This document shows positions 3,064 through 32,227 of a DNA stretch of 32,433 nucleotides, in pieces. Numbering within the stretch: position 1 is the first letter of the stretch; the number at the start of each line of letters is the position of its first letter. The position numbers and the translations under genes are program-made. This DNA comes from Streptococcus danieliae (GTDB taxonomy: Bacteria > Bacillota > Bacilli > Lactobacillales > Streptococcaceae): positions 1 to 32,433 of the forward strand of contig NZ_WSRS01000010.1 in NCBI RefSeq assembly GCF_009767945.1, written 5' to 3'. The notes beneath the pieces are model-generated. The model was not told where the DNA came from. It saw nothing but the letters and a program-made list of their open reading frames with translations, and made no database searches.

Positions 3064-3127
3064 TAGCACAAAGTGTGCAGTTTCTGTTTTATTATACTAT
3101 ATATTGTATCAAGACTATCTCCATAAC

Positions 3128-3165
3128 GCAAAAAAGCAACGGCTTTAAAACCGTTGCTTTTTTGC
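3128..3165. terminator. Strong bidirectional terminator
   Basis: A 15-bp perfect stem (3128-3142 with 3151-3165) whose outer part is A6 on the left and T6 on the right, so it can end transcription from either side. It mainly serves the minus-strand purine permease gene that stops at 3205. Confidence 0.85.
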
Positions 3166-3204
3166 ATTAGTCAGAGGGGGGTGCCCCAGCCTCTTTTAAA
3201 TTTC

Positions 3205-20003: not shown

Positions 20004-20594
20004 ATGAGTAAGATGTATTTTGAGCAGCAGCCGGATGCCGCACATGATGTGCGAGAGTTACGCGTATCTCTATTGGACGCGGATTTTCGTTTTTTAGCCG
20101 ATGCCGGTGTTTTTTCGAAAAAGCAGGTGGACTATGGTTCCCGGGTCTTGTTGGATAGCCTGGATTTTGCACCGGGGGAGCGGTTGTTGGACCTGGGCTG
20201 TGGGTATGGCCCTTTGGGGATTGCCTTAGCTAAGGTGCAGGGCCAGCAGGTGACCATGGTCGATGTCAATGAAAGAGCTTTAGATTTGGCAGCCAAGAAT
20301 GCCCGGGCTAATGGGGTGGAGGCGCAGATCTTTTCTTCAGATGTGTATGAGCAGGTTGCAGGGACCTTTACCCATATTATCTCCAATCCGCCAATTCGGG
20401 CAGGTAAGAGTGTGGTCCACAAAATTATTGTGGAGGCACCGGACTACTTGGAGTCTGGTGGAGATTTGACCCTTGTGATTCAAAAGAAGCAAGGGGCGCC
20501 AAGTGCTAAGAAGAAGATGGAAGAAATCTTTGGCAATTGTGAAATTATCAGAAAGGATAAGGGTTATTATATCCTTAGGAGTGAAAAGGAATGA
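20004..20594 (+). CDS. Class I SAM-dependent methyltransferase (RsmC/MTS type)
   Basis: A 196-aa protein with the MTS domain of the RsmC group, which methylates guanine N2 in rRNA. The SAM loop is LLDLGCGYGPLGIALA, the acidic end of beta 2 is VDVNERAL, and the catalytic NPPIRAGK follows. It lacks the extra N-terminal domain of E. coli RsmC. The RNA target is unproven. No Shine-Dalgarno sequence is visible before the ATG at 20004, and the promoter is only 7 bases upstream. An internal ATG at 20013 is the alternative start and also lacks a ribosome binding site. Its stop overlaps the pdp start (ATGA). Confidence 0.88.
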   Translation: MSKMYFEQQPDAAHDVRELRVSLLDADFRFLADAGVFSKKQVDYGSRVLLDSLDFAPGERLLDLGCGYGPLGIALAKVQGQQVTMVDVNERALDLAAKNARANGVEAQIFSSDVYEQVAGTFTHIISNPPIRAGKSVVHKIIVEAPDYLESGGDLTLVIQKKQGAPSAKKKMEEIFGNCEIIRKDKGYYILRSEKE

Positions 20595-21868
20595 GAGCGG
20601 TTGACTTAATTCAGAAAAAACGTGATGGCCATGCCTTGAGCAAGGAGGAGATTGATTGGTTGATTGAGGGCTATGTGGATGGATCGGTTCCGGACTACCA
20701 GATGGCGGCCTTGGCCATGGCAATCTACTTTAAGGGAATGGATACGCGGGAGATCAGTGATTTAACCATGGCTATGGTGGCTAGTGGTGATCAGGTGGAC
20801 TTATCTGCTATTCCGGGTATCAAGGTTGATAAGCATTCCACGGGTGGTGTGGGGGACAAGGTAACCCTGATTCTGGCACCGCTGGTTGCGAGCTTTGGTG
20901 TATCGGTGGCTAAAATGAGTGGTCGTGGCCTGGGGCATACGGGTGGTACCTTGGACAAGTTGGAATCGATCAAAGGCTTCCAGGTAGAAATTCCGGAAGC
21001 GGACTTCATTCAGCAGGTCCAAGAGATTGGTGTTTCTGTGATTGGCCAGTCGGATCAGTTGGTTAAGGCTGATAAGTTGCTCTACGCTCTGCGGGATGTG
21101 ACCGCAACGGTGGATATCATTCCTTTGATTGCTAGCTCGGTTATGAGTAAGAAAATCGCGGCAGGGGCCGATGCCATTCTTCTAGATGTGACAGTTGGGC
21201 AAGGTGCCTTTATGAAAACGATCGAAGAAGCGCGTGAGTTGGCAACAACCATGGTCAATCTTGGAAAAGCAGTTGGTCGTGAAACGGTGGCTGTGGTGAC
21301 AGACATGAGCCAACCGTTGGGTCGGGCGATTGGGAATCGTTTGGAGCTATTGGACGCGATTGAGATTTTACGGGGACAAGGTCGTTCGGATATTACGAAC
21401 TTTGTAAGCGAATTGGGCCAAATGTTGTTGGCTTTAGCAGGTGTTGAAAAATCACTTGAGGAAGTTCGTTCCCATCTTGAAAACGGTTTAGCCCTGGCTA
21501 AATTTGAAGAGATGGTGGTGGCCCAAGGTGGTGATTTAGAAGACCTCTATCGCCCGGTCCAAGTTCAAGAGGTGTATGAGGTTAAGGCGCCTGTAAGTGG
21601 CTATATTACAGAGCTTCCAGCCCTTTATTATGGTCTCTTTGCCATGAAGTTAGGTGCTGGTCGTGCTGTCAAAACAGATCCTCTAGATTTCGAAACCGGT
21701 CTTGTTTTTGAGAAAAAAGTAGGCGATCGGGTAGAAGTAGGTCAAGTTTTGGCGAGAATTTACGCAAATTCGGAAATTCCGAAAGTTATGCTTGAAGAAT
21801 TTCTGGAAAATGTTAAAATAGGAAAAGAAGAGGTCGAAATCAAGGAAATTATTGAAATCGTTCGTTAA
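20591..21868 (+). CDS. pdp: Pyrimidine-nucleoside phosphorylase
   Basis: A 425-aa enzyme that splits uridine, thymidine or deoxyuridine with phosphate to the base and (deoxy)ribose-1-phosphate. The phosphate loop is KHSTGGVGDKVT and the family signature is MSGRGLGHTGGTLDKLES. The three-domain length is normal for the pdp/deoA group. Firmicute enzymes usually accept both uridine and thymidine, so pdp is preferred over deoA. It overlaps the methyltransferase gene by 4 bp. In related genomes deoC is, from memory, the next gene; here a BMP gene follows. Confidence 0.94.
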   Translation: MRAVDLIQKKRDGHALSKEEIDWLIEGYVDGSVPDYQMAALAMAIYFKGMDTREISDLTMAMVASGDQVDLSAIPGIKVDKHSTGGVGDKVTLILAPLVASFGVSVAKMSGRGLGHTGGTLDKLESIKGFQVEIPEADFIQQVQEIGVSVIGQSDQLVKADKLLYALRDVTATVDIIPLIASSVMSKKIAAGADAILLDVTVGQGAFMKTIEEARELATTMVNLGKAVGRETVAVVTDMSQPLGRAIGNRLELLDAIEILRGQGRSDITNFVSELGQMLLALAGVEKSLEEVRSHLENGLALAKFEEMVVAQGGDLEDLYRPVQVQEVYEVKAPVSGYITELPALYYGLFAMKLGAGRAVKTDPLDFETGLVFEKKVGDRVEVGQVLARIYANSEIPKVMLEEFLENVKIGKEEVEIKEIIEIVR

Positions 21869-21916: not shown

Positions 21917-21932
21917 AGTGATTTGGATCACT
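21917..21932 (+). other. Small hairpin between pdp and the first BMP gene
   Basis: AGTGAT (21917-21922) pairs with ATCACT (21927-21932) around TTGG. It lies in the 96-bp pdp-BMP gap with no immediate U-tract terminator. It may be a processing or partial attenuation point that sets a separate level for the lipoprotein. A weak promoter (TTGAAT 21881-21886, TATCTT 21905-21910) lies just before it. Confidence 0.35.
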
Positions 21933-21964: not shown

Positions 21965-23017
21965 ATGAACAAGAAACAATGGTTTGGTATCGGTTTGACG
22001 GCTGCAGCAGCCCTAACATTGGTAGCCTGTGGTAACCGTTCTACCAGTGAAAATGCCGATGCTAAAACAGACCTTAAGGCAGTTATCGTAACCGATACTG
22101 GTGGGGTTGATGACAAGTCCTTTAACCAATCAGCTTGGGAAGGTTTGATGGCTTGGGGTAAAGAAAACGGCCTATCTGAAGGAAGCGGTATTAGCTATAT
22201 CCAATCTCAAAGTGAGTCTGACTATGCCAACAACTTGGAACAAGCAGCATCTAGCGGTAACCAATTAGTATTCGGTATCGGTTTTGCCCTTCGTAACGCT
22301 GTTGAATCAGCTGCGAAAGACCGTACAGACACCAACTACGTTATCATTGATGAAGTGATTGAAAACATGGACAACGTTGCTTCTGCAACCTTTGCGGACA
22401 ACGAAGCAGCTTACCTAGCTGGTGTGGCTGCGGCTAAAACAACTAAAACAAAAGAAATTGGTTTCATCGGTGGTATGGAATCAGAAGTTATCACCCGTTT
22501 TGAAAAAGGATTTGAAGCAGGGGTTAAATCTGTTGATCCTTCTATCAACGTTCGTGTGGACTACGCAGGTTCTTTCAGTGATGCAGCGAAAGGGAAATCA
22601 ATCGCTCAAGCTCAATACTCAGCTGGCGTAGATGTAATCTACCAAGCAGCTGGTGGAACTGGTGTGGGTGTCTTCAAAGAAGCGAAAGACTTGAATGAAA
22701 CTAAAGACGAAGCAGAAAAAGTTTGGGTAGTCGGTGTTGACCGTGACCAGAAAGATGAAGGAAACTACAAATCTAAAGACGGTAAAGAATCCAACTTTGT
22801 TCTTGCCTCTACTTTGAAAGAAGTTGGAGCGGCTGTTGCAGACTTGGCAAATCAAGCCAAAGATGGTAAGTTCCCAGGTGGTAAACACCTTACTTACGGT
22901 TTGAAAGACAAAGGTGTTGACCTTACAGAAACAAACTTGTCTGATGACGCAAAAGCAGCTGTTAAAGAAGCAAAAGATAAAATCGTAGCTGGTGATTTAG
23001 AAGTTCCAGCTAAATAA
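21965..23017 (+). CDS. BMP/PnrA-family nucleoside-binding lipoprotein, paralogue 1
   Basis: A 350-aa lipoprotein with signal peptide and lipobox LVAC, followed by a BMP (TmpC/PnrA) domain. This family binds purine and other nucleosides for ABC import. Landmarks are TDTGGVDDKSFNQSAWEG, ATFADNEAAYLAGVAAA, GFIGGMESEVITRFEKGF and VDYAGSF. The stretch QAAGGTGVGVF replaces the HASGKTGDGL of paralogue 3, a probable ligand-site difference. Codons are strongly biased to GGT, AAC, AAA and GCT, as in highly expressed genes. AGGAGG at 21953-21958 fixes the start; the frame extends upstream without meaning. A terminator follows. Confidence 0.92.
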   Translation: MNKKQWFGIGLTAAAALTLVACGNRSTSENADAKTDLKAVIVTDTGGVDDKSFNQSAWEGLMAWGKENGLSEGSGISYIQSQSESDYANNLEQAASSGNQLVFGIGFALRNAVESAAKDRTDTNYVIIDEVIENMDNVASATFADNEAAYLAGVAAAKTTKTKEIGFIGGMESEVITRFEKGFEAGVKSVDPSINVRVDYAGSFSDAAKGKSIAQAQYSAGVDVIYQAAGGTGVGVFKEAKDLNETKDEAEKVWVVGVDRDQKDEGNYKSKDGKESNFVLASTLKEVGAAVADLANQAKDGKFPGGKHLTYGLKDKGVDLTETNLSDDAKAAVKEAKDKIVAGDLEVPAK

Positions 23018-23032
23018 TCGACATTAGGGAGT

Positions 23033-23064
23033 GAGAGAGGGGATTCGTGTCCTCTCTCTTTTTT
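23033..23064 (+). terminator. Terminator after BMP paralogue 1
   Basis: GAGAGAGG (23033-23040) pairs with CCTCTCTC (23051-23058) and is followed by six T. It marks the end of the methyltransferase-pdp-BMP1 unit. Confidence 0.85.
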
Positions 23065-23108
23065 ATTAGACTTATAAGATGTTGGTTTTGCCTTAAAAGG
23101 AGATTGTG

Positions 23109-23798
23109 ATGTTGTTAGAAATAAAAGATGTTCATAAAGTGTATACAGGGACCTCGAACGCTAGTGAGCAAGCCCTAAAGGGAGTCAATCTCCAATTGGA
23201 AGAAAACAAGCTGGTGGTGATTTATGGTCCATCCGGTTGTGGGAAGACCAGTCTGTTAAACATTATTAGTGGTCTGGACTCAGATTATCAGGGGGAGGTT
23301 CTCTTTAAAAATCAGCGTTTGGGTGAGTTATCTCCAGATGAGTTGACCCTTTTCCGAAAAGAGAATATTGGTTTTGTTTTTCAAAATTTTAATGTCATTG
23401 CCCATCAATCTGTTTTAGAAAATGTAAAGTTGCCGCTGCGTTTATACGGCTTAAGGGAACAAGAAATGAATGCGATTGGAGAGCGGTATCTGGAGCAGTT
23501 GGGGATGTTGGCCTTTAAAGCGAAAAATGTTCAGGAATTATCTGGAGGGCAGCGGCAACGAGTGGCGATTGCCCGAGCCCTGGTTAATACTCCAGACTTA
23601 ATTGTGGCGGATGAGCCGACGGGGTCTTTGGATTCCAAATCCCAAGCAGCAGTTTTAGAGATTTTTAAACAGTTGCAGATACTGGGGAAAACAATCATTA
23701 TTGTGAGCCATAATCCAGAAGTTGCGGATTATGCAGACATCATTATCAGGATGAAGGACGGTGAGATCATTGAGAAAACAGAAAAGTCAGAGAAATAG
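23109..23798 (+). CDS. ABC exporter ATP-binding protein (MacB/LolD/SalX type)
   Basis: A 229-aa ATPase with Walker A GPSGCGKTS, Q-loop FVFQNFNVIAHQ, signature LSGGQRQR, Walker B LIVADEPTGSLDS and switch His in IVSHNP. The ADEPTGSLDS form and GEVLFKNQRLGELS are typical of the MacB/FtsE-like group that powers FtsX-fold permeases in peptide, antibiotic or lipoprotein handling. I chose the ATG at 23109, 6 bases after AAGGAG; a GTG one codon earlier is too close. It overlaps the permease gene by 38 bp. It is not a nucleoside importer component. Confidence 0.9.
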   Translation: MLLEIKDVHKVYTGTSNASEQALKGVNLQLEENKLVVIYGPSGCGKTSLLNIISGLDSDYQGEVLFKNQRLGELSPDELTLFRKENIGFVFQNFNVIAHQSVLENVKLPLRLYGLREQEMNAIGERYLEQLGMLAFKAKNVQELSGGQRQRVAIARALVNTPDLIVADEPTGSLDSKSQAAVLEIFKQLQILGKTIIIVSHNPEVADYADIIIRMKDGEIIEKTEKSEK

Positions 23799-25059
23799 TT
23801 TTACATGGCGGAGCAAGCTGCGTTTGGCCTGGTCTAATTTTTTAGAACGGCGTTGGCGAAATTTTATGATTGCAGCAGCGACTTCTATCGGCTTTATCGG
23901 GATTTTACTTGCTTTTGGTCTAGGAAACGCAGTTGTTGATCTAATTCATCGGGAAACCAATCAGGGCCAATTACCAGCTCAGATCCAGGTGTCCTTGAAT
24001 GCTCAAACAACTGGTGGTGGGGTTTTGAATCAATCTGATATTGATTTTATCTATGAGCTGGTGGGCAAAGACCAGATCAAGTATCTAGAAAGTCCCTTTT
24101 CAACCCTGATTCAAACAGCTAGTATTGAAGGGAAACAGCTGGATCTCAGTCAGTCTCTACCCAATTATGCTCAGCTGGTCAGCCTTTATACAAATAGTGA
24201 GATTGCAGTCCCTGCTAATACAGAGGGAAATCTCCTTGCCGGGAATCCCTATAAGGATTCATCTGAAGAGGGGATAACGGTTCCAATCACCTTTATCGAG
24301 GATTTTAATCGCGAGACCAAAAGTAGTTACACAGCAGAGAGCTTGATAGGAAAAGAAGTTCAATTAGTCATCCTGGAGAATACCGAGAAAGGGAGTCATA
24401 CAGCAACTGTTTCAGTGAAGATTAGCAGGGTTTTGACAGATGAGTTGGCAGATAGCAATAGTTATATGGCGCCAGTGACACTGGAAAAAATCCTGCAACA
24501 ACATCAGTTTGTACGCCTGAAGCCTTATGTAATTTTTGAGCTGGGGGATCCAAGTACAACAGAGGCCGTTGTGGAAAGTCTGAAGGAAAATAAAAAATAT
24601 ACTGTGCTGTCGCAACAAGAGGTACTTGGTTTGGTGATCCAGTTTATTCGGGTGATTCAGGGATTATTGGTTGTCCTGTCTTTCCAAGCGGTGGTTGTTT
24701 CTACTATTATGATTGGGATTATCGTTTATATTAATATCATGCAACGATCTAGGGAGATTGGGGTTATGAAGGCGGTTGGTTATTTGAACCGGGATGTTCA
24801 GTCAATTTTTCTCTATGAATCCCTCATCATTACCTTCCTGTCCTTAGTGGTGGCCTTCCTAGTTTCTCAAGTTATTGGAAGTATCGCCAATGTAGTTGTT
24901 CGTCATTTTTATCCTAGTATTACCAAGGTCTTTTTCTTAGACCTGCAGTCGATTCTGATGATGATTGGGTTAGGTTTGGTCTTGGGTTACCTATCCGCCT
25001 ATTTCCCAACCAAAAAAATTAGTCAATTAGATCCGGTTGTTTCTTTGAGGTATGAATAG
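23761..25059 (+). CDS. FtsX/MacB-type ABC permease
   Basis: A 432-aa membrane protein. One segment near residues 36-60 is followed by a large extracellular domain (about 60-290). Three more segments (about 300-325, 345-372, 398-420) form the FtsX unit, including SREIGVMKAVGY, the usual coupling helix motif, and DPVVSLRYE at the end. Such permeases with a MacB-like ATPase act mechanically on periplasmic or extracellular partners, or expel peptides. The start is a GTG inside the ATPase gene with AAGGA just before it; a TTG three codons later is an alternative. No partner membrane-fusion protein is next to it. Confidence 0.87.
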   Translation: MRSLRKQKSQRNSFTWRSKLRLAWSNFLERRWRNFMIAAATSIGFIGILLAFGLGNAVVDLIHRETNQGQLPAQIQVSLNAQTTGGGVLNQSDIDFIYELVGKDQIKYLESPFSTLIQTASIEGKQLDLSQSLPNYAQLVSLYTNSEIAVPANTEGNLLAGNPYKDSSEEGITVPITFIEDFNRETKSSYTAESLIGKEVQLVILENTEKGSHTATVSVKISRVLTDELADSNSYMAPVTLEKILQQHQFVRLKPYVIFELGDPSTTEAVVESLKENKKYTVLSQQEVLGLVIQFIRVIQGLLVVLSFQAVVVSTIMIGIIVYINIMQRSREIGVMKAVGYLNRDVQSIFLYESLIITFLSLVVAFLVSQVIGSIANVVVRHFYPSITKVFFLDLQSILMMIGLGLVLGYLSAYFPTKKISQLDPVVSLRYE

Positions 25060-25075
25060 GGGAAAAATTAGAGGA

Positions 25076-25103
25076 GGAGTCGGTTTTGCCGGCTTCTTTT
25101 TTT
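25076..25103 (+). terminator. Terminator of the exporter pair
   Basis: An 8-bp stem with two or three G-U pairs (25076-25083 with 25089-25096) and a 5-nt loop runs into a T tract, about 17 bases after the permease stop. Confidence 0.75.
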
Positions 25104-25161
25104 GAGAAAAAAGGAAACAACAGTTGCATATAAGAGAAATGGTCCTGAAAAATATTCGGGA

Positions 25162-25175
25162 TTCAAACGCTTTCG
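25162..25175 (-). promoter_or_regulatory. cre-like site upstream of BMP paralogue 2
   Basis: The minus strand reads CGAAAGCGTTTGAA, matching the CcpA operator TGnAAnCGnTnnCA at all but two fixed positions. It lies about 65 bp before the -10 of the BMP2 promoter, an atypical distance for direct repression. Confidence 0.35.
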
Positions 25176-25217
25176 TGAAAGTTTACAGAAAAGTTTTTGA
25201 TTTTTCGCGAATGAATC

Positions 25218-25246
25218 TAGTCAAAATGATTTTTCTGTGCTATACT
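25218..25246 (+). promoter_or_regulatory. Promoter of BMP paralogue 2
   Basis: TAGTCA (25218-25223), 17-base spacer, TATACT (25241-25246) with a TGC extension. It gives this paralogue its own transcript, bounded by terminators on both sides. Confidence 0.7.
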
Positions 25247-25279
25247 GTCAACTGTATGTAAAAAACGGAGGTTAGTGCT

Positions 25280-26326
25280 TTGAATAAGAAGCCGATTCTT
25301 GCGGTTGCAGGCCTAGCAGTGGCAGCACTGGGACTGGTTGCTTGTGGTCAGCGAGAAAACACAGAAAATTCAGAAGCCAAGGTAAAAGCTAGTTTGGTTA
25401 CTAGCGTTGGTGGCGTGGATGATAAATCCTTTAACCAGTCTGCCTGGGAAGGTTTAGAGGCATGGGGTAAGGCCCAAGGTCTTAGCCAGGGTAATGGTTA
25501 TGATTATTACCAATCCGATTCGGAGTCGGATTACACCAATAATTTTGAGCAGGCCGCTTCGAGCGGAAGCAATTTGATTATTGGAATTGGTTACATTGTC
25601 AAAAATGCAGTTGAGCAGGCTGCTAAGGATCATCCAGATGTGAATTATGTTATTTTGGATGAAGTGATTGAAGGTCAAAAGAATGTAACTAGTGCAACAT
25701 TTGCGGATCAAGAAGCAGCTTACTTAGCGGGGGTTGCAGCAGCTAAGACCAGTCAGTCGAAGAAGATTGGTTTTATCGGCGGAATTGAATCTGAAGTTGT
25801 GAAACGGTTTGAAAAGGGCTTTGAAGCAGGGATTCATTCGGTGGATCCGGATATCAAGGTTCAGGTAGATTACGCAGGTTCCTTTACGGATGCCTCTAAA
25901 GGGAAATCCTTGGCACAGGCTCAATATGCGAGTGGTGTGGACGTGATTTACCAAGCAGCAGGTGGAAGTGGAGCTGGAGTCTTCAAAGAAGCGAAAGATT
26001 TAAATGAAACACGTGATGAAGCTGACAAGGTTTGGGTCATCGGTGTGGATCAGGATCAATCAGCTGATGGAGAATTTACTTCCAAGGATGGGAAAAAAGC
26101 AAACTTTGTTTTGACTTCCACAATCAAGGAAGTTGGAGCAGCTCTGAAAGATATTGCAGATAAGGCCAGTCAAGGGAACTTCCCTGGAAACCAGACAGCT
26201 GTCTATGGTTTGAAAGTGGGAGGTGTGAACCTCGTGACAGGTCAACTTTCCTCAGATGCCAAAGCAGCCGTTTCAACAGCTAAAGAAGATATTATTGCGG
26301 GACGTTTGACCGTTCCAGAAAAATAA
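25280..26326 (+). CDS. BMP/PnrA-family nucleoside-binding lipoprotein, paralogue 2
   Basis: A 348-aa lipoprotein with lipobox LVAC after a hydrophobic signal and a complete BMP domain (SVGGVDDKSFNQSAWEG, ATFADQEAAYLAGVAAA, GFIGGIESEVVKRFEKGF). Like paralogue 1 it has QAAGGSGAGVFKEAKD instead of the HASGKTG form. Codon choice is less biased than in paralogue 1, suggesting lower expression. The start codon is TTG at 25280, 8 bases after GGAGG, and no better ATG lies nearby. It is monocistronic, with its own promoter and terminator. Confidence 0.9.
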   Translation: MNKKPILAVAGLAVAALGLVACGQRENTENSEAKVKASLVTSVGGVDDKSFNQSAWEGLEAWGKAQGLSQGNGYDYYQSDSESDYTNNFEQAASSGSNLIIGIGYIVKNAVEQAAKDHPDVNYVILDEVIEGQKNVTSATFADQEAAYLAGVAAAKTSQSKKIGFIGGIESEVVKRFEKGFEAGIHSVDPDIKVQVDYAGSFTDASKGKSLAQAQYASGVDVIYQAAGGSGAGVFKEAKDLNETRDEADKVWVIGVDQDQSADGEFTSKDGKKANFVLTSTIKEVGAALKDIADKASQGNFPGNQTAVYGLKVGGVNLVTGQLSSDAKAAVSTAKEDIIAGRLTVPEK

Positions 26327-26390
26327 TCTTTTTGGTGTGGACGTAGGTTTTGAAGTTTTTCTTTAAAACCTTAGCCGCTTTTGTATTCGT

Positions 26391-26419
26391 AAGAGGTTGA
26401 GAAATCAACCTCTTTTTTT
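26391..26419 (+). terminator. Terminator after BMP paralogue 2
   Basis: A perfect 10-bp stem (26391-26400 with 26405-26414) capped by a GAAA tetraloop is followed by a T tract. Confidence 0.88.
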
Positions 26420-26473
26420 GCAAAATAAGCGCCCAAAAAACTTGAAGGGAGGTGGTCAATGACCGCTAAAAAA

Positions 26474-26482
26474 TGATAAAAT
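26474..26482 (+). promoter_or_regulatory. Extended -10 promoter of the deoC operon
   Basis: TGATAAAAT gives TAAAAT at 26477-26482 with a TGn extension. TGGTCA 18 bases upstream is a partial -35. It starts the deoC-cdd-BMP3-transporter operon. Confidence 0.65.
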
Positions 26483-26533
26483 AGAGGGAGTAAAATGTAA
26501 CCGCATTTCCTGCCAAAAGAATAGGAGAAAAGC

Positions 26534-27196
26534 ATGAAACTGAACAAATACATTGACCACACACTTCTCAAAGCAGATGCTCAAAAAGCTGCGATTTTAC
26601 AGTTGATTCAAGAGGCCAAAGACTATGATTTTGCGAGTGTTTGTTTGAATCCAAGCTGGGTCGCTCTGGCTGCGGAGGAGCTGGCTGGAACAGATGTTAA
26701 AGTCTGTACCGTTATCGGTTTCCCTCTTGGAGCAACAACTCCTGCTACAAAAGCGTTCGAAACGGCAGAAGCTGTTAAAAATGGCGCTGATGAAGTGGAT
26801 ATGGTCATGAATATTGCGGCCTTAAAAGATGGTGATGATGCAACTGTTCTACAGGACATCCAAGCAGTTGTGGAGGCCAGTGGTGATGCCTTGGTTAAGG
26901 TTATCATTGAAACAGCCTTGTTGACAGATGAAGAAAAAGAGCGTGCTTCTCGTCTAACCGTTGAAGCAGGAGCTGATTTTGTGAAGACGTCTACAGGATT
27001 TTCAACAGCTGGTGCCAATGTGGCGGATCTTGAATTGATGCGTCGTGCAGTTGGACCAGAGTTTGGTGTCAAAGCAGCTGGTGGAGCGCGTTCTTATGAA
27101 GATGCTGTTGCTTTTGTGGAAGCAGGAGCAACTCGAATTGGAACTTCTGCTGGTGTGGCCATTATGAAGGGTGAGGTTGTGAATGGAGGCTATTGA
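26534..27196 (+). CDS. deoC: Deoxyribose-phosphate aldolase
   Basis: A 220-aa class I aldolase that cleaves 2-deoxyribose-5-phosphate to glyceraldehyde-3-phosphate and acetaldehyde, the last step of deoxynucleoside breakdown. The Schiff-base lysine is Lys151 in FVKTSTGF. Asp89 in EVDMVMNI and Lys182 in the VKAAGGARS stretch complete the usual catalytic set. It starts the second half of the locus and overlaps cdd by 14 bp. A phosphopentomutase gene, which links pdp to deoC, is not in the window. Confidence 0.95.
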
Positions 27197-27572
27197 TCCA
27201 ATTCAGCTGGCCATGAAAACAGCTAACCAGGCTTACGTTCCCTACTCCCATTTCCCCATAGGGGCTGTCCTTGTTGCCAAGGATGGCCAGGTTTTTACCG
27301 GAGTTAACATTGAAAATGCTAGCTTTGGCTTAACCAACTGTGGGGAGAGAACCGCTATTTTTAAGGCCGTTTCAGAGGGAGTAACTGACTTCTCTGCTCT
27401 CTACATTTATGGAGAGACGCAAGCCCCGGTGTCACCGTGTGGAGCTTGCCGGCAAGTGATGGCGGAATTTTTTGAAATGGAAGTACCCATTACCTTAATT
27501 GCCAAGGATGGTTCAACAAAGACCATGACGATGGCAGAATTGCTACCTTATTCTTTCCAAAATTTAAATTAA
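27183..27572 (+). CDS. cdd: Cytidine deaminase
   Basis: A 129-aa homotetrameric-type zinc enzyme that deaminates cytidine and deoxycytidine to uridine forms. Zinc ligands are Cys53 in TNCGERTA and Cys86/Cys89 in SPCGACRQ; Glu55 is the proton shuttle. The usual CAER is CGER here, with Gly54 replacing alanine. [13 protein letters not shown] and [10 protein letters not shown] form the substrate pocket. The start lies in the deoC end. Its product feeds pdp, which links the two halves of the locus. Confidence 0.95.
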
Positions 27573-27596
27573 TTGATTCAAATAAAGGAGATTGTA

Positions 27597-28652
27597 ATGA
27601 AGTCAAATAAAATTGTGGCCCTTGGTGCAGCCTCTCTTGCAGTAGTTGCTTTAGCAGCTTGTTCAAACCGTAGTGCGAATCGTTCCGAGTCAGCTGCTGA
27701 TTCGATTCGTGTAGCCTATGTTACGGATACAGGTGGGGTTGATGATCACTCTTTCAACGAATCTGCTTGGACAGGTTTGAAGGCTTGGGGTGAGGAAAAT
27801 AAATTAGAACAAAATCAGGGCTATACTTATTATCAGTCTGAAAATGAATCTGACTTCACCAACAATTTCCAACAAGCCATTACAGAAGGCTATGACATGG
27901 TTGCAGGTGCAGGCTTTGCCCTAGCGACATCCTTGGAAGAAGTCGCTAAAAACAATCCAGATACAAAATTTGTAATGGTGGACAGCGTGATTGATTTGGA
28001 CAACGTTGCTTCTGCAACCTTTGCCGATCAAGAGGCAGCTTACCTAGCCGGTGTTGCAGCGGCCAAAAACACAAAATCAAAACAAGTTGGTTTCATTGGT
28101 GGTGTGGAAAGTGAAGTTATCACACGCTTTGAAAAAGGGTTTGAAGCTGGTGTGAAATCTGTCGACCCATCGATCAAAGTCCAAGTGGACTATGCAGGCT
28201 CTTTTAATGATGCTGCCAAAGGTAAAACAATCGCTGCAGCTCAATATGCGGCAGGTGCAGATGTGATCTTCCACGCATCTGGTAAAACTGGTGATGGACT
28301 TTTGAATGAAGCCATTACGCGGAACGAAAAACTTGCTGCAGATTCTGATGAAAAAGTTTGGGTCATCGGTGTAGATAGTGACCAAGCTCCTCAAGGTGGT
28401 TACAAAGACAAGGACGGAAAAGAAGCCAATGTTGTCTTGACTTCAACCTTGAAAGAAGTTGGAAACACCATTAAAGACATGGCCAATAAATTGCAAGAAG
28501 ACAAGTTCCCTGGTGGAACAACCACTGCCTATGACCTAAAATCAGGTGGTGTTGAAGTCACTTACGATAACTTGAACGATGAAACCAAAAAAGCTGTTGA
28601 AGAAGCAAAACAAGCGATTATTGACGGCAAAGTAACCGTTCCTGAAAAATAA
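27597..28652 (+). CDS. BMP/PnrA-family nucleoside-binding lipoprotein, paralogue 3 (likely the transporter's cognate)
   Basis: A 351-aa lipoprotein with lipobox LAAC and a full BMP domain (TDTGGVDDHSFNESAW, ATFADQEAAYLAGVAAA, GFIGGVESEVITRFEKGF). The HASGKTGDGL stretch is the form I associate with ordinary PnrA. It is in the same transcription unit as the ATPase and permeases that follow, so it is the best candidate for the binding protein of that importer. AAGGAG precedes the ATG at 27597; eight in-frame codons upstream are not family sequence. Confidence 0.93.
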   Translation: MKSNKIVALGAASLAVVALAACSNRSANRSESAADSIRVAYVTDTGGVDDHSFNESAWTGLKAWGEENKLEQNQGYTYYQSENESDFTNNFQQAITEGYDMVAGAGFALATSLEEVAKNNPDTKFVMVDSVIDLDNVASATFADQEAAYLAGVAAAKNTKSKQVGFIGGVESEVITRFEKGFEAGVKSVDPSIKVQVDYAGSFNDAAKGKTIAAAQYAAGADVIFHASGKTGDGLLNEAITRNEKLAADSDEKVWVIGVDSDQAPQGGYKDKDGKEANVVLTSTLKEVGNTIKDMANKLQEDKFPGGTTTAYDLKSGGVEVTYDNLNDETKKAVEEAKQAIIDGKVTVPEK

Positions 28653-28684: not shown

Positions 28685-30220
28685 ATGGCGAATGAACATG
28701 TCATCGAGATGCGCGACATCACCAAAAAATTTGGGGATTTTGTTGCCAACGACCATATTAATCTTCAACTCCGGAAGGGCGAAATTCATGCCCTTCTAGG
28801 AGAAAACGGGGCAGGAAAATCCACTTTGATGAATATGCTGGCAGGTTTGCTAGAGCCAACCAGCGGTGAGATCGCGGTCAATGGCCAGATTGTTCAATTG
28901 GATTCTCCTTCTAAAGCAGCTTCTCTTGGAATCGGGATGGTCCACCAACACTTTATGTTGGTGGAGGCCTTCACGGTTGCTGAAAACATCATCTTGGGAA
29001 GTGAAGTGACCAAAAATGGTGTCTTAGATATTAAAGAAGCAACTAAGGAAATCAAAGCATTGTCCGAACGGTACGGTCTGGCAGTCGATCCAGCAGCTAA
29101 GATCGAAGATATCTCAGTAGGAATGCAGCAGCGGGTTGAAATTCTAAAGACCCTTTACCGAGGTGCAGATATCCTTATCTTTGACGAACCGACCGCGGTT
29201 TTGACCCCTTCTGAAATTCAAGAGTTGGTTGAAATTATGAAGAGTTTGGTTAAAGAAGGGAAATCCTTGATTTTGATCACCCATAAATTGGACGAAATCA
29301 GGGCTGTTGCCGATCGCGTGACCGTTATTCGTCGTGGTAAGAGTATCGAAACGGTTGAAATTGCTGGGGCTAGCAATCAGGATTTGGCTGAAATGATGGT
29401 CGGCCGTTCGGTTTCCTTCAAGACAGATAAGGTCAAAGCACAGCCACAAGAAACGGTTCTATCTATTAAAGATCTGGTGGTTTTGGAGAATCGTGGTGTT
29501 CCTGCGGTTAAAAACCTCAACCTGGATGTTCGTGCTGGTGAGATTGTCGGGATTGCCGGAATTGATGGCAATGGTCAGACAGAGCTGATTCAGGCTATCA
29601 CTGGATTGCGGAAGGTTAAGTCGGGAATGATTACTCTAAAAGGCCAAAATATTGTCGGGGCTAGCCCACGGACAATCACGGAAATGCAGGTTGGACACGT
29701 GCCGGAGGATCGCCATCGTGATGGTCTGGTTCTGCAATTATCGATTTCTGAAAATATTGCCCTGCAAACCTATTACAAGGAACCAATGAGTTCTAAGGGA
29801 ATTTTGAACTATACCAATATTTACCAACATGCGCGTAAATTGATGGATGAGTTTGATGTTCGGGCTGCCAGTGAATATGTCCCCGCTAAAGCCTTGTCTG
29901 GAGGAAACCAGCAGAAGGCGATTATTGCGCGGGAAGTGGATCGGGACCCAGATTTACTCATCGTTAGTCAACCGACCCGTGGTTTGGATGTTGGTGCGAT
30001 TGAGTATATTCACAAACGTCTGATTGAGGAGCGGGATAAAGGGAAGGCCATTTTGGTTGTTTCCTTTGAACTAGATGAGATCTTGAATGTTTCAGATCGG
30101 ATTGCGGTTATTCATGATGGTAAAATTCAGGGTGAATTGGATCCTGAAATCACTAACAAACAGGAGCTTGGAATCTTGATGGCTGGTGGAGAATTGAAGA
30201 AGGAGGAAGGAAATGTCTAA
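28685..30220 (+). CDS. Nucleoside ABC transporter ATP-binding protein (two NBDs)
   Basis: A 511-aa protein with two nucleotide-binding domains, as in sugar- and nucleoside-type importers (YufO/NupA class). The first has Walker A GENGAGKST (residues 39-47), a degenerate signature ISVGMQQR, and FDEPTAVLTP. The second has a degenerate P-loop GIDGNGQTE, intact LSGGNQQK and SQPTRGLDVG where Gln replaces the catalytic Glu. This asymmetry is normal for the family. It starts 32 bp after BMP3 and overlaps the first permease gene by 8 bp. Confidence 0.95.
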   Translation: MANEHVIEMRDITKKFGDFVANDHINLQLRKGEIHALLGENGAGKSTLMNMLAGLLEPTSGEIAVNGQIVQLDSPSKAASLGIGMVHQHFMLVEAFTVAENIILGSEVTKNGVLDIKEATKEIKALSERYGLAVDPAAKIEDISVGMQQRVEILKTLYRGADILIFDEPTAVLTPSEIQELVEIMKSLVKEGKSLILITHKLDEIRAVADRVTVIRRGKSIETVEIAGASNQDLAEMMVGRSVSFKTDKVKAQPQETVLSIKDLVVLENRGVPAVKNLNLDVRAGEIVGIAGIDGNGQTELIQAITGLRKVKSGMITLKGQNIVGASPRTITEMQVGHVPEDRHRDGLVLQLSISENIALQTYYKEPMSSKGILNYTNIYQHARKLMDEFDVRAASEYVPAKALSGGNQQKAIIAREVDRDPDLLIVSQPTRGLDVGAIEYIHKRLIEERDKGKAILVVSFELDEILNVSDRIAVIHDGKIQGELDPEITNKQELGILMAGGELKKEEGNV

Positions 30221-31274
30221 GAAAATTCAAGGTGCAGCTGTTCCCCTAATTTCAGTTCTCTTGGGGATTGTCCTTGGAGCCATTATCATGTGGATTTTTG
30301 GCTACGATGCTATTTGGGGATATGAAGCTCTTTTTGCAACAGCTTTTGGTTCTCTGCGTTCGATTGGAGAAATCTTCCGGGCTATGGGACCTTTGACCTT
30401 GATTGGTCTTGGTTTTGCGGTAGCTAGTCGTGCAGGTTTCTTTAACGTCGGTTTGGCGGGACAAGCCTTGGCTGGTTGGATTGCAGCAGCATCCTTTGCT
30501 CTTCTCAATCCAGACCTGCCACGCCTGGTTATGATTCCGGCTACCATTATCATTGCCATGTTTGCTGGGGGGATCATTGGTTCGATTCCAGGAATTTTAC
30601 GGGCCTACTTGGGAACAAGTGAGGTTATCGTGACCATCATGATGAACTATATTGTTCTCTATGTTGGAAATGCGCTTATTCACCAATTGCCTCAGTCTGT
30701 GATGCAAAGTACCGACTCTAGTAAGCCAGTGGGAATGGCTGCGAGCTACCAAACAGAATGGCTGCGGGCTCTGACCAGTAACTCACGGATGAACATTGGG
30801 ATTTTCTTTGCCCTGATTGCAGTCTTTGCGATTTGGTTCCTCTTGAAAAAAACCACTCTTGGTTTTGAAATTCGCTCTGTTGGTCTCAATCCTCATGCCA
30901 GTGAGTATGCGGGGATGTCTTCCAAACGAATTATCATTATTTCGATGATTATCTCCGGTGCGCTTGCGGGTCTGGGAGGAGCTGTTGAAGGGCTTGGAAC
31001 CTTCCAGAATGTCTACATTCAAGGAAGCTCCCTCTCGATTGGTTTTAACGGGATGGCAGTATCGCTGTTAGCCAATAATTCGCCAATTGGAATTATCTTT
31101 GCGGCTTTCCTCTTTGCTGTCCTACAAGTTGGGGCGCCAGGTATGAATGCGGCGTCAATTCCGCCAGAACTGGTTAACATTGTGACAGCATCGATTATCT
31201 TCTTCGTTGGAATTCATTATGTCATTGAAAAATTCCTTGAATCAAAAGCAAAAAAGGAGGGGCAAGCTAAATGA
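30213..31274 (+). CDS. Nucleoside ABC transporter permease 1
   Basis: A 353-aa permease of the BPD_transp_2 family, the larger of the two nucleoside permeases. About eight to ten hydrophobic segments are seen. FFNVGLAGQALAGWIAA after the second segment and SVGLNPHASEYAGMSSKRI, the cytoplasmic coupling loop, are characteristic. An AAGGAGG site lies in the end of the ATPase gene. It overlaps permease 2 by 4 bp and forms a heterodimer with it. Confidence 0.93.
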   Translation: MSKKIQGAAVPLISVLLGIVLGAIIMWIFGYDAIWGYEALFATAFGSLRSIGEIFRAMGPLTLIGLGFAVASRAGFFNVGLAGQALAGWIAAASFALLNPDLPRLVMIPATIIIAMFAGGIIGSIPGILRAYLGTSEVIVTIMMNYIVLYVGNALIHQLPQSVMQSTDSSKPVGMAASYQTEWLRALTSNSRMNIGIFFALIAVFAIWFLLKKTTLGFEIRSVGLNPHASEYAGMSSKRIIIISMIISGALAGLGGAVEGLGTFQNVYIQGSSLSIGFNGMAVSLLANNSPIGIIFAAFLFAVLQVGAPGMNAASIPPELVNIVTASIIFFVGIHYVIEKFLESKAKKEGQAK

Positions 31275-32227
31275 ATCTCGAAACCCTATTAGCCTTATTA
31301 GTGTCTTCCATGCTGATTTATTCAGCCCCTCTCATTTTTACTTCTATCGGTGGAAGTTTCTCTGAGCATGCTGGGATTGTCAATGTCGGTTTGGAAGGAA
31401 TCATGGTTGTTGGTGCCTTTTCAGCAGTTGTTTTCAACCTTGAGACAGCTTCCGTTTTTGGAGAGGCAACTCCCTGGTTGGCTCTTCTAGTTGGAGGTTT
31501 GGCGGGTGTGCTCTTCTCCCTCCTCCATGCTGTAGCGACCGTTCATTTCCGTGCGGACCACGTGGTCAGTGGTACGGTGCTGAACCTGATGGCTCCAGCC
31601 TTGACTGTTTTCTTGGTCAAAGTGCTTTACAATAAAGGCCAAACTGATAATATTCAAGAGTCCTTTGGACGTTTTGATTTCCCAATCTTGTCGGATATTC
31701 CGTTTATCGGCGAAATCTTTTTCAAAAACACGTCGATTATGGGGTATGTGGCCATTGCGGTTTCCTTCCTGGCTTGGTTTGTGATGTTTAAGACCAAGTT
31801 TGGTCTCCGCCTCCGTTCCGTTGGTGAACATCCACAGGCGGCTGATACTCTTGGGATCAATGTTTACATGATGCGGTATGCGGGTGTAATGATTTCTGGT
31901 TTCCTTGGTGGTGTTGGGGGTGCCGTTTATGCCCAATCGATTTCGGTTAACTTCTCCATTTCAACCATTGTAGGGCCAGGATTTATCGCCCTTGCAGCAA
32001 TGATTTTCGGAAAGTGGAATCCAGTTGGTGCCATGTTCTCCAGTCTTTTCTTTGGATTGTCCCAAAGTTTGGCGGTTATTGGAAGCCAGTTACCACTCTT
32101 TGATAAGGTTCCAGCCGTTTACCTACAGATTGCTCCTTACGTCTTGACAATCGTTGTCCTTGCGGTCTTCTTCGGAAAAGCCGTTGCGCCGAAGGCAGTC
32201 GGAGTCAATTATATTAAGTCTAAATAA
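31271..32227 (+). CDS. Nucleoside ABC transporter permease 2
   Basis: A 318-aa permease of the same family, with about eight membrane segments. GIVNVGLEGIMVVGAF and the coupling loop SVGEHPQAADTLGINVY mirror the equivalent parts of permease 1. AAGGAGG occurs before its ATGA start overlap. It is the last gene of the deoC operon and is followed by a strong terminator. Confidence 0.93.
   Translation: MNLETLLALLVSSMLIYSAPLIFTSIGGSFSEHAGIVNVGLEGIMVVGAFSAVVFNLETASVFGEATPWLALLVGGLAGVLFSLLHAVATVHFRADHVVSGTVLNLMAPALTVFLVKVLYNKGQTDNIQESFGRFDFPILSDIPFIGEIFFKNTSIMGYVAIAVSFLAWFVMFKTKFGLRLRSVGEHPQAADTLGINVYMMRYAGVMISGFLGGVGGAVYAQSISVNFSISTIVGPGFIALAAMIFGKWNPVGAMFSSLFFGLSQSLAVIGSQLPLFDKVPAVYLQIAPYVLTIVVLAVFFGKAVAPKAVGVNYIKSK

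Follow-up and report, generated by a model that had tools for sequence, protein, structure and literature searches.

The closest described counterpart of the system studied here is the nucleoside-binding lipoprotein PnrA of Streptococcus pneumoniae (SP0845/SPD_0739) with its PnrABC/NupABC importer, whose genes stand in the order pdp-deoC-cdd-pnrA-importer (passages of PMC11620282). We analyzed a stretch of 32,433 nucleotides from the mouse-associated Streptococcus danieliae (contig NZ_WSRS01000010.1, positions 1 to 32,433 of the forward strand; hereafter the window) that carries proteins of the same family and the same underlying gene order. Whereas S. pneumoniae has one receptor, the window encodes three BMP/PnrA lipoproteins, which we call BMP1, BMP2, and BMP3, and the canonical PnrA slot is held by the diverged BMP3.

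Two known systems resemble this arrangement. Borrelia burgdorferi likewise combines several BMP paralogues (BmpA-D) with one proposed nucleoside importer (BB0677-0679), and base preferences differ among its receptors, BmpD binding purines and BmpA thymidine (both points from sections of PMC7093131 and PMC13325309). Judged by locus numbers, however, the Borrelia receptors BB0382-0385 lie away from the importer BB0677-0679, and delivery is unproven in Borrelia as well. The pneumococcal Ami system has five binding lipoproteins, about 52-60% identical, that serve one ABC channel and differ in what they recognize (portions of PMC11192437), and the pairwise identity among BMP1-3 is 53-67%; Ami differs in that it handles peptides rather than nucleosides and uses another binding-protein family. 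Receptor sharing is known in kind from Ami, and probably from the Borrelia Bmp proteins, and the three-BMP streptococcal case would be a new variant. Searches of the open-licence literature showed no published streptococcus with more than one BMP paralogue.

We consider it moderately probable, from the sequence comparisons below, that three diverged receptors with different ligand ranges feed one NupABC importer. In this proposal, two duplications of a single ancestral PnrA gene would have preceded the split between S. danieliae and Streptococcus sp. 121, on their common stem. BMP1, located after pdp, would have kept the sequence, the codon bias, and the pocket of the ancestor as the main broad nucleoside receptor, and BMP2 (own promoter, TTG start, low codon bias) and BMP3 (importer operon) would have altered different pocket elements and may take up other nucleosides or compounds related to them as ligands. 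Each of the three would deliver to the single NupABC importer, and an ABC-FtsX exporter would have been inserted later between BMP1 and BMP2 as a functionally separate unit. If true, the locus would be a compact natural experiment on a single-receptor ABC importer turning multi-receptor: one genus would offer an exporter-free state (sp. 121), relatives in which the gene never duplicated, and a group with an expansion of its own and loss of the same pocket residue, and the base specificity of PnrA-type receptors would become testable with three natural sequences.

Three BMP genes and one importer

All genes of the locus lie on the plus strand, in the order rsmC, pdp, BMP1, ABC ATPase, FtsX permease, BMP2, deoC, cdd, BMP3, and nupABC. 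BMP1 (21965-23017), BMP2 (25280-26326), and BMP3 (27597-28652) each match the full-length Pfam domain PF02608, with 257, 264, and 234 bits, respectively, against a cut-off of 24.1, and each translation shows a lipobox cysteine near the N terminus (LVAC-G, LVAC-G, and LAAC-S for BMP1 to BMP3). These are the only three PF02608 genes of the genome, a draft assembly in 244 contigs with a completeness rating of 100%. The BMP-type importer nupA-nupB-nupC, assigned from open reading frames (ORFs) and Pfam, follows at 28685-32227. Six PF02653 permeases are encoded in the genome, two of which are nupB and nupC. A further pair, on contig C99, adjoins a Peripla_BP_6 protein and a branched-chain amino acid ATPase (a Liv-like system), and single permeases on contigs C218 and C222 adjoin ATPases and ABC_sub_bind receptors. 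Because these other four permeases sit with other receptor types, the genome has one BMP-type importer, and the description given in the original prediction, three BMP lipoproteins for one visible nucleoside importer with an ABC exporter between them, was correct. Several receptors facing one matching importer is the mark of a shared-receptor ABC importer of the Ami/Ali kind, and we found three BMPs and one NupABC; BMP1, BMP2, and BMP3 may all dock on and feed NupABC.

The canonical layout rsmC-pdp-deoC-cdd-BMP-nupABC was observed in 54 fetched loci, a number that includes repeats of one species or genome and is not a species count, and the matches to pdp and to deoC stand 19-61 bp apart in them; in five fetched loci pdp and deoC were undetected at the expected place. 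Outside the window, the split layout occurred among the fetched loci in two genomes, Streptococcus sp. 121 (L063/L112) and S. danieliae strain STR (L111/L179). This bears out the earlier statement that BMP1, BMP2, and the exporter pair separate pdp (20591-21868; NCBIfam NF004747, 703 bits against a cut-off of 559), the upstream part of the salvage cluster, from a deoC that adjoins it elsewhere. Strain STR (L111) is 94-95% identical in DNA over the region, with a BMP1 99.7-100% identical, and sp. 121, the next relative, is 81-89% identical over the matching pieces. In a protein-level search of 284 genus genomes at high thresholds, orthologues of both BMP2 and BMP3 were present in three, namely the genome under study, strain STR (G206), and sp. 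121 (G111); a fourth BMP3 match, in G156, is a copy with 63% identity and the next best among the 284. The arrangement is thus not widespread, whereas a wide spread had been named in the original prediction as a refuting outcome.

A single PF02608 match was found in 184 of 197 genus genomes and two or three matches in 13, the present genome included. The expectation that streptococci have one such gene consequently holds for most genomes and fails for the 12 of 196 others with extra BMP genes. From 10 of these 12 we sampled 12 extra copies, the remaining two genomes being sp. 121, which has the same tandem, and G127; a single BMP locus was sampled from G015, which has three, and likewise from G175 and G178, which have two each. 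No importer genes were present on the fetched stretches around the 12 extra copies.

One departure from the canonical layout stands apart. In Streptococcus massiliensis (L127), the sole BMP gene occupies the pdp-deoC interval and nupA comes directly after cdd, as expected of a relocated PnrA gene. A tree built from six proteins encoded in the flanks does not put S. massiliensis next to S. danieliae, and its BMP placement parallels the BMP1 position as an isolated case.

Ancestry and conservation of the copies

BMP1 is the copy closest to the streptococcal operon PnrA proteins, with 65-75% identity, compared with 57-64% for BMP2 and 55-63% for BMP3. The BMP tree comprised 55 rows after L001-L062, L101-L103, L111, L179, L178, L182, and identical sequences had been set aside, together with 29 further locus prefixes, outgroups, and near-identical rows. 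In this tree BMP1 and BMP2 are sisters (support 99/97), and BMP3, the most diverged copy with a branch of 0.71, belongs to the same supergroup (97/87) with a weak exact fork (83/23). The extra BMP copies of other streptococci form a separate clade (99/96). In the approximately unbiased (AU) test, for which the groups were chosen with the tree already in view, a single clade of the six BMP1-3 copies was not rejected (p 0.27), while grouping BMP2 or BMP3 with the extra-copy clade was (p 0.026 and 0.014, respectively).

Codon bias points in the same direction. BMP1 has the strongest bias of the 25 window genes computed, with an effective number of codons (ENC) of 36.4, followed by 43.8 for BMP3 and 52.5, amounting to no bias, for BMP2. 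The order BMP1/BMP3/BMP2 is the same in strain STR (36.1/44.4/50.5) and in sp. 121 (39.7/43.2/50.7), and may reflect a ranking of expression. The median is 38.1 in 61 loci with one BMP gene and nupA, a set that contains Lactococcus, several strains of one species, the repeats L186/L188, and L192/L193 (BMP3 from STR and from sp. 121, the only entries to exceed 43) but no Paenibacillus; for nupA the median is 47.3 in 73 loci, Paenibacillus included. Given its identity, tree position, and codon bias, BMP1 is therefore the copy to which the ancestral PnrA role most likely passed, and the gene in the canonical slot, BMP3, the one that diverged.

The long branch and weak placement of BMP3 weigh against a simple history of duplication, and leave room for acquisition from elsewhere. 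BMP3 might have been transferred from another lineage and have replaced a native gene that had moved to the BMP1 site. S. massiliensis, with its sole BMP at pdp-deoC and none at cdd-nupA, provides a model for such a move, and a grouping of its protein with BMP1 and BMP2 was not rejected (p 0.145). We nevertheless judge a transfer quite unlikely, since one clade of all six copies is compatible with the data, a clade of BMP3 with the extra copies is rejected, and the 284 genus genomes hold no relative of BMP3 closer than the 63% match.

All three genes are under purifying selection. The ratio of nonsynonymous to synonymous substitution rates (dN/dS, Nei-Gojobori) relative to strain STR is 0.014 for BMP1, 0.021 for BMP2, and 0.020 for BMP3; relative to sp. 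121 it is 0.028, 0.067, and 0.021, respectively, at dS values of 0.65-1.14 that are partly near saturation. BMP2 is the fastest evolving of the three between the window and sp. 121. From these low ratios we conclude that all three are kept as proteins.

Pocket residues and expression signals

To compare the pockets, residues named for Borrelia BmpA in a portion of PMC13325309 were mapped by motif and by alignment to TmpC rather than by coordinates; in the TmpC alignment, chain number + 15 gives the numbers Asp27, Ser28, Ser86, Phe87, and Phe186 published in PMC7093131, as far as the cited section goes (hand count). The references were 57 Streptococcus and Lactococcus copies, near-identical strains included. 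Residues 38-350 of BMP1 align with the 6ya3/6yab chains, of which 6ya3 is pneumococcal PnrA (part of PMC12892991). In the alignment, equivalents of BmpA F27, F176, D24, D98, D225, and K242 are present in all three copies of both the window and sp. 121, and BMP1 is unchanged at every mapped pocket site. At 132 nearly invariant columns, BMP1 departs from the references 8 times, BMP2 14 times, and BMP3 15 times.

BMP2 and BMP3 are altered at different places. The loop-2 Asp (D44), which aligns with TmpC Asp27, is Asp in 57 of 57 references and is retained in BMP1 and BMP3, while BMP2 has Ser in the window and Gly in sp. 121. According to excerpts of two papers, TmpC Asp27 can contact the inosine carbonyl (PMC7093131), and the specificity of PnrA is described as being tuned by its loop (PMC13325309). 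For the loss of this residue, we class BMP2, as judged from its sequence, as a BMP-family protein and not as a PnrA equivalent. Loop 1 of BMP2 reads YIV or FMV where the references mostly have FAL, and also YKL and YAL; only L109V is unusual. BMP3 reads FHASGKTGDGLLNEAI, identically in the window and sp. 121, where the references have YQAAGGTGAGVFxEAK or similar, so that GGTG near the pocket becomes GKTG (G231 to K), and it carries R260S (BMP1 numbering) in both genomes. A predicted ligand-contact glycine of P48/PnrA, either of two, lies in the GGTG stretch (a passage of PMC12892991).

The charged side chain in GKTG also admits a bolder idea, which we hold to be rather doubtful: the importer may have changed its cargo, with BMP3, the receptor in the importer operon, bringing a charged or unusual ligand such as a nucleotide or a modified nucleoside, BMP1, moved beside pdp, the old nucleosides, and BMP2 a third class, so that one permease would serve three ligand classes.

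Several observations count against a shift of ligand range as we propose it. BMP1 itself departs from the references at 8 of the 132 columns. The equivalent residue of BmpD, Asp19, faces away from the ligand (section of PMC7093131), so loss of the Asp may not matter, and the BMP2 of sp. 121 has Ser for the N28-equivalent Asn, which could mean a loss of binding rather than a shift. Because loop 1 varies among the references too, the change there in BMP2 says little.

The same position changed elsewhere in the genus. Among the 12 sampled extra copies it is Asn in seven, Gly in one, and Asp in four; with BMP2 included, the tree requires at least five changes. The extra copies thus resemble the present set in losing the loop-2 Asp (8 of 12) and, likewise, in having no importer gene on the fetched stretch, but differ from BMP1-3 in their separate clade and in being purA-linked in many cases. 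The repeated change of D44 in extra copies is suggestive, although a comparison of D44 loss with orphan position comes down to 2-3 independent pairs and has no significance. As a separate observation, a gene of the purA group (adenylosuccinate synthase) lies upstream of the extra BMP at 7 of 11 loci (L067, L068, L072, L074, L078, L080, and L081), with one ORF between the two at L068 and L081; the label was tested at L078 and comes from sequence clustering at the other six. Loop 2 reads TNQTG or TNVTG rather than TDTGG in six of eight purA-linked copies.

The predicted expression signals differ from copy to copy. Upstream of BMP1, a perfect inverted repeat, AGTGAT-N4-ATCACT (21917-21932), is kept in three genomes, with a different spacer in sp. 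121, and is a possible operator. A terminator scan predicts an intrinsic terminator after BMP1 (23033-23060, plus strand). In the window, STR, and sp. 121 alike, the start codon of BMP2 is TTG and a good ribosome site precedes it; the gene is flanked on the plus strand by a predicted extended -10 promoter (25218-25246), whose TGCTATACTGTCAA stretch is retained in sp. 121, and by a predicted terminator (26391-26414), for which sp. 121 has a similar hairpin. A predicted promoter (26453-26482, plus strand), with a similar sequence in sp. 121, precedes the deoC-cdd-BMP3-nupABC unit, in which deoC (26534-27196, PF01791) and cdd (27183-27572, PF00383) come first. The scans returned 26 promoter-like sites versus 18.0 expected and 16 terminator-like sites versus 11.6 expected; single sites are therefore weak evidence, and conservation is the better argument. 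With one mismatch allowed, a PurBox-like pattern gave no match and a cre-like one 14 matches versus 15.7 expected. That each copy has its own expression setting, as had been proposed, thus holds at the level of predicted terminators and promoters, their similarity in sp. 121, and codon bias. Since pneumococcal pdp forms an operon separate from pnrA (as far as the cited part of PMC11620282 goes), the split observed here concerns gene order and not surely a transcript. In sp. 121 (L063), the pdp-BMP1 gap of about 360 bp contains an insert with a terminator-like hairpin and, by eye, a palindromic mobile-element-like stretch; the window is without this insert.

Separate predicted transcription units and the very different codon bias of BMP1-3 would also suit a partition of dosage or expression, in which the three proteins have one nucleoside range in common and owe their persistence to different levels or times of expression. 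The aromatic sandwich and the D24, D98, D225, and K242 equivalents kept in all three are consistent with it; the loss of the loop-2 Asp from BMP2 of both species, by different residues, and the altered GGTG stretch of BMP3 speak against it, and we regard this explanation as fairly unlikely. Still less probable, in our estimate, is that BMP2 (or BMP3) has ceased to feed the importer and works as a sensor or at the surface instead. Mycoplasma P48, whose role in acquisition of an integrative and conjugative element (ICE) is binding-dependent and transport-independent (part of PMC12892991), offers a precedent, and BMP2 is a solitary gene between a predicted promoter and a predicted terminator. However, the pdp-deoC interval contains no gene for a regulator or sensor, BMP3 belongs to the importer operon, and the lipobox and pocket scaffold are kept in all three proteins.

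The ABC-FtsX exporter and minor features

The exporter between BMP1 and BMP2 consists of separate genes for a MacB/LolD-type ABC ATPase (23106-23798, plus strand; PF00005) and a 432-residue FtsX/MacB-type permease (23761-25059, plus strand; PF02687). Neither reaches an NCBIfam cut-off, the best match of the ATPase being TIGR03608 with 203 bits, under the cut-off of 254.85. Permease residues 19-432 align with residues 3-419 of PDB 5xu1_M (E-value 1.6e-09), an entry that we take to be a non-canonical S. pneumoniae ABC transporter, and the MacB match is partial. The pair shares with MacB-type transporters the sequence match of the permease and differs from them in that no MacA/HlyD partner gene is adjacent, its neighbors being BMP1 and BMP2. 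Both genes are constrained between the window and strain STR (dN/dS 0.069 for the ATPase and 0.084 for the permease), and the GC profile gives no foreign signal over the exporter stretch.

It had been suggested that BMP1 and BMP2 serve this exporter as receptors or extracytoplasmic partners. The adjacency recurs in strain STR, but the segment 23018-25171, which holds the exporter, has no DNA match in sp. 121 (blastn); the match resumes at 25172, and the order there is pdp-BMP1-BMP2-deoC-cdd-BMP3-nupABC. Orthologues of the permease, with 52-66% identity, occur in 26 of 196 other genus genomes, each of which has one BMP gene; one orthologue is partial, and the closest carries an in-frame TGA. 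None of these 26 is among the 12 multi-BMP genomes, and as the chance probability of zero overlap is 0.17, this indicates no association rather than avoidance: the exporter assorts independently of copies 1 and 2. Within the window, the predicted terminator also separates BMP1 from the exporter. We therefore rejected the exporter-receptor link and view a partnership of this kind as highly improbable. Of the readings offered in the original prediction, receptors sharing one permease is the best supported (one importer, three conserved and diverged receptors, and changes at or near pocket loops), while the tie to the exporter is contradicted.

Because no other examined locus has an exporter at this place, we read it as having been acquired by the S. 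danieliae lineage, which is simpler than its loss from sp. 121. On this reading the BMP copies predate the exporter at this locus, contrary to the single five-gene insertion once envisaged, and it seems to be a later and functionally separate arrival.

Elsewhere the exporter keeps different company. In the surroundings fetched for 15 of the 26 orthologue genomes, neither a BMP nor an importer gene lies beside the exporter, just weak 34% ATPase matches. The neighbors vary and include a ComR-like regulator with an adhE-like gene, a MerR/TipAS regulator, and a second ABC ATPase with a 390-residue protein, identities that were tested on one to three members per group. At L082, L084, and L085, and possibly at L083 and L089, the exporter orthologues are preceded by a 194-residue ABC ATPase and/or a protein of about 390 residues, and three of the latter gave no Pfam or NCBIfam match; the ATPase, this protein, and the exporter pair perhaps form a four-gene module. 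In an Rfam search of the whole window at gathering thresholds, the BMP/exporter region was without a match, and a match to the streptococcal small RNA (sRNA) SpF25 was found at 3066-3167, barely above the cut-off (48.8 versus 48 bits).

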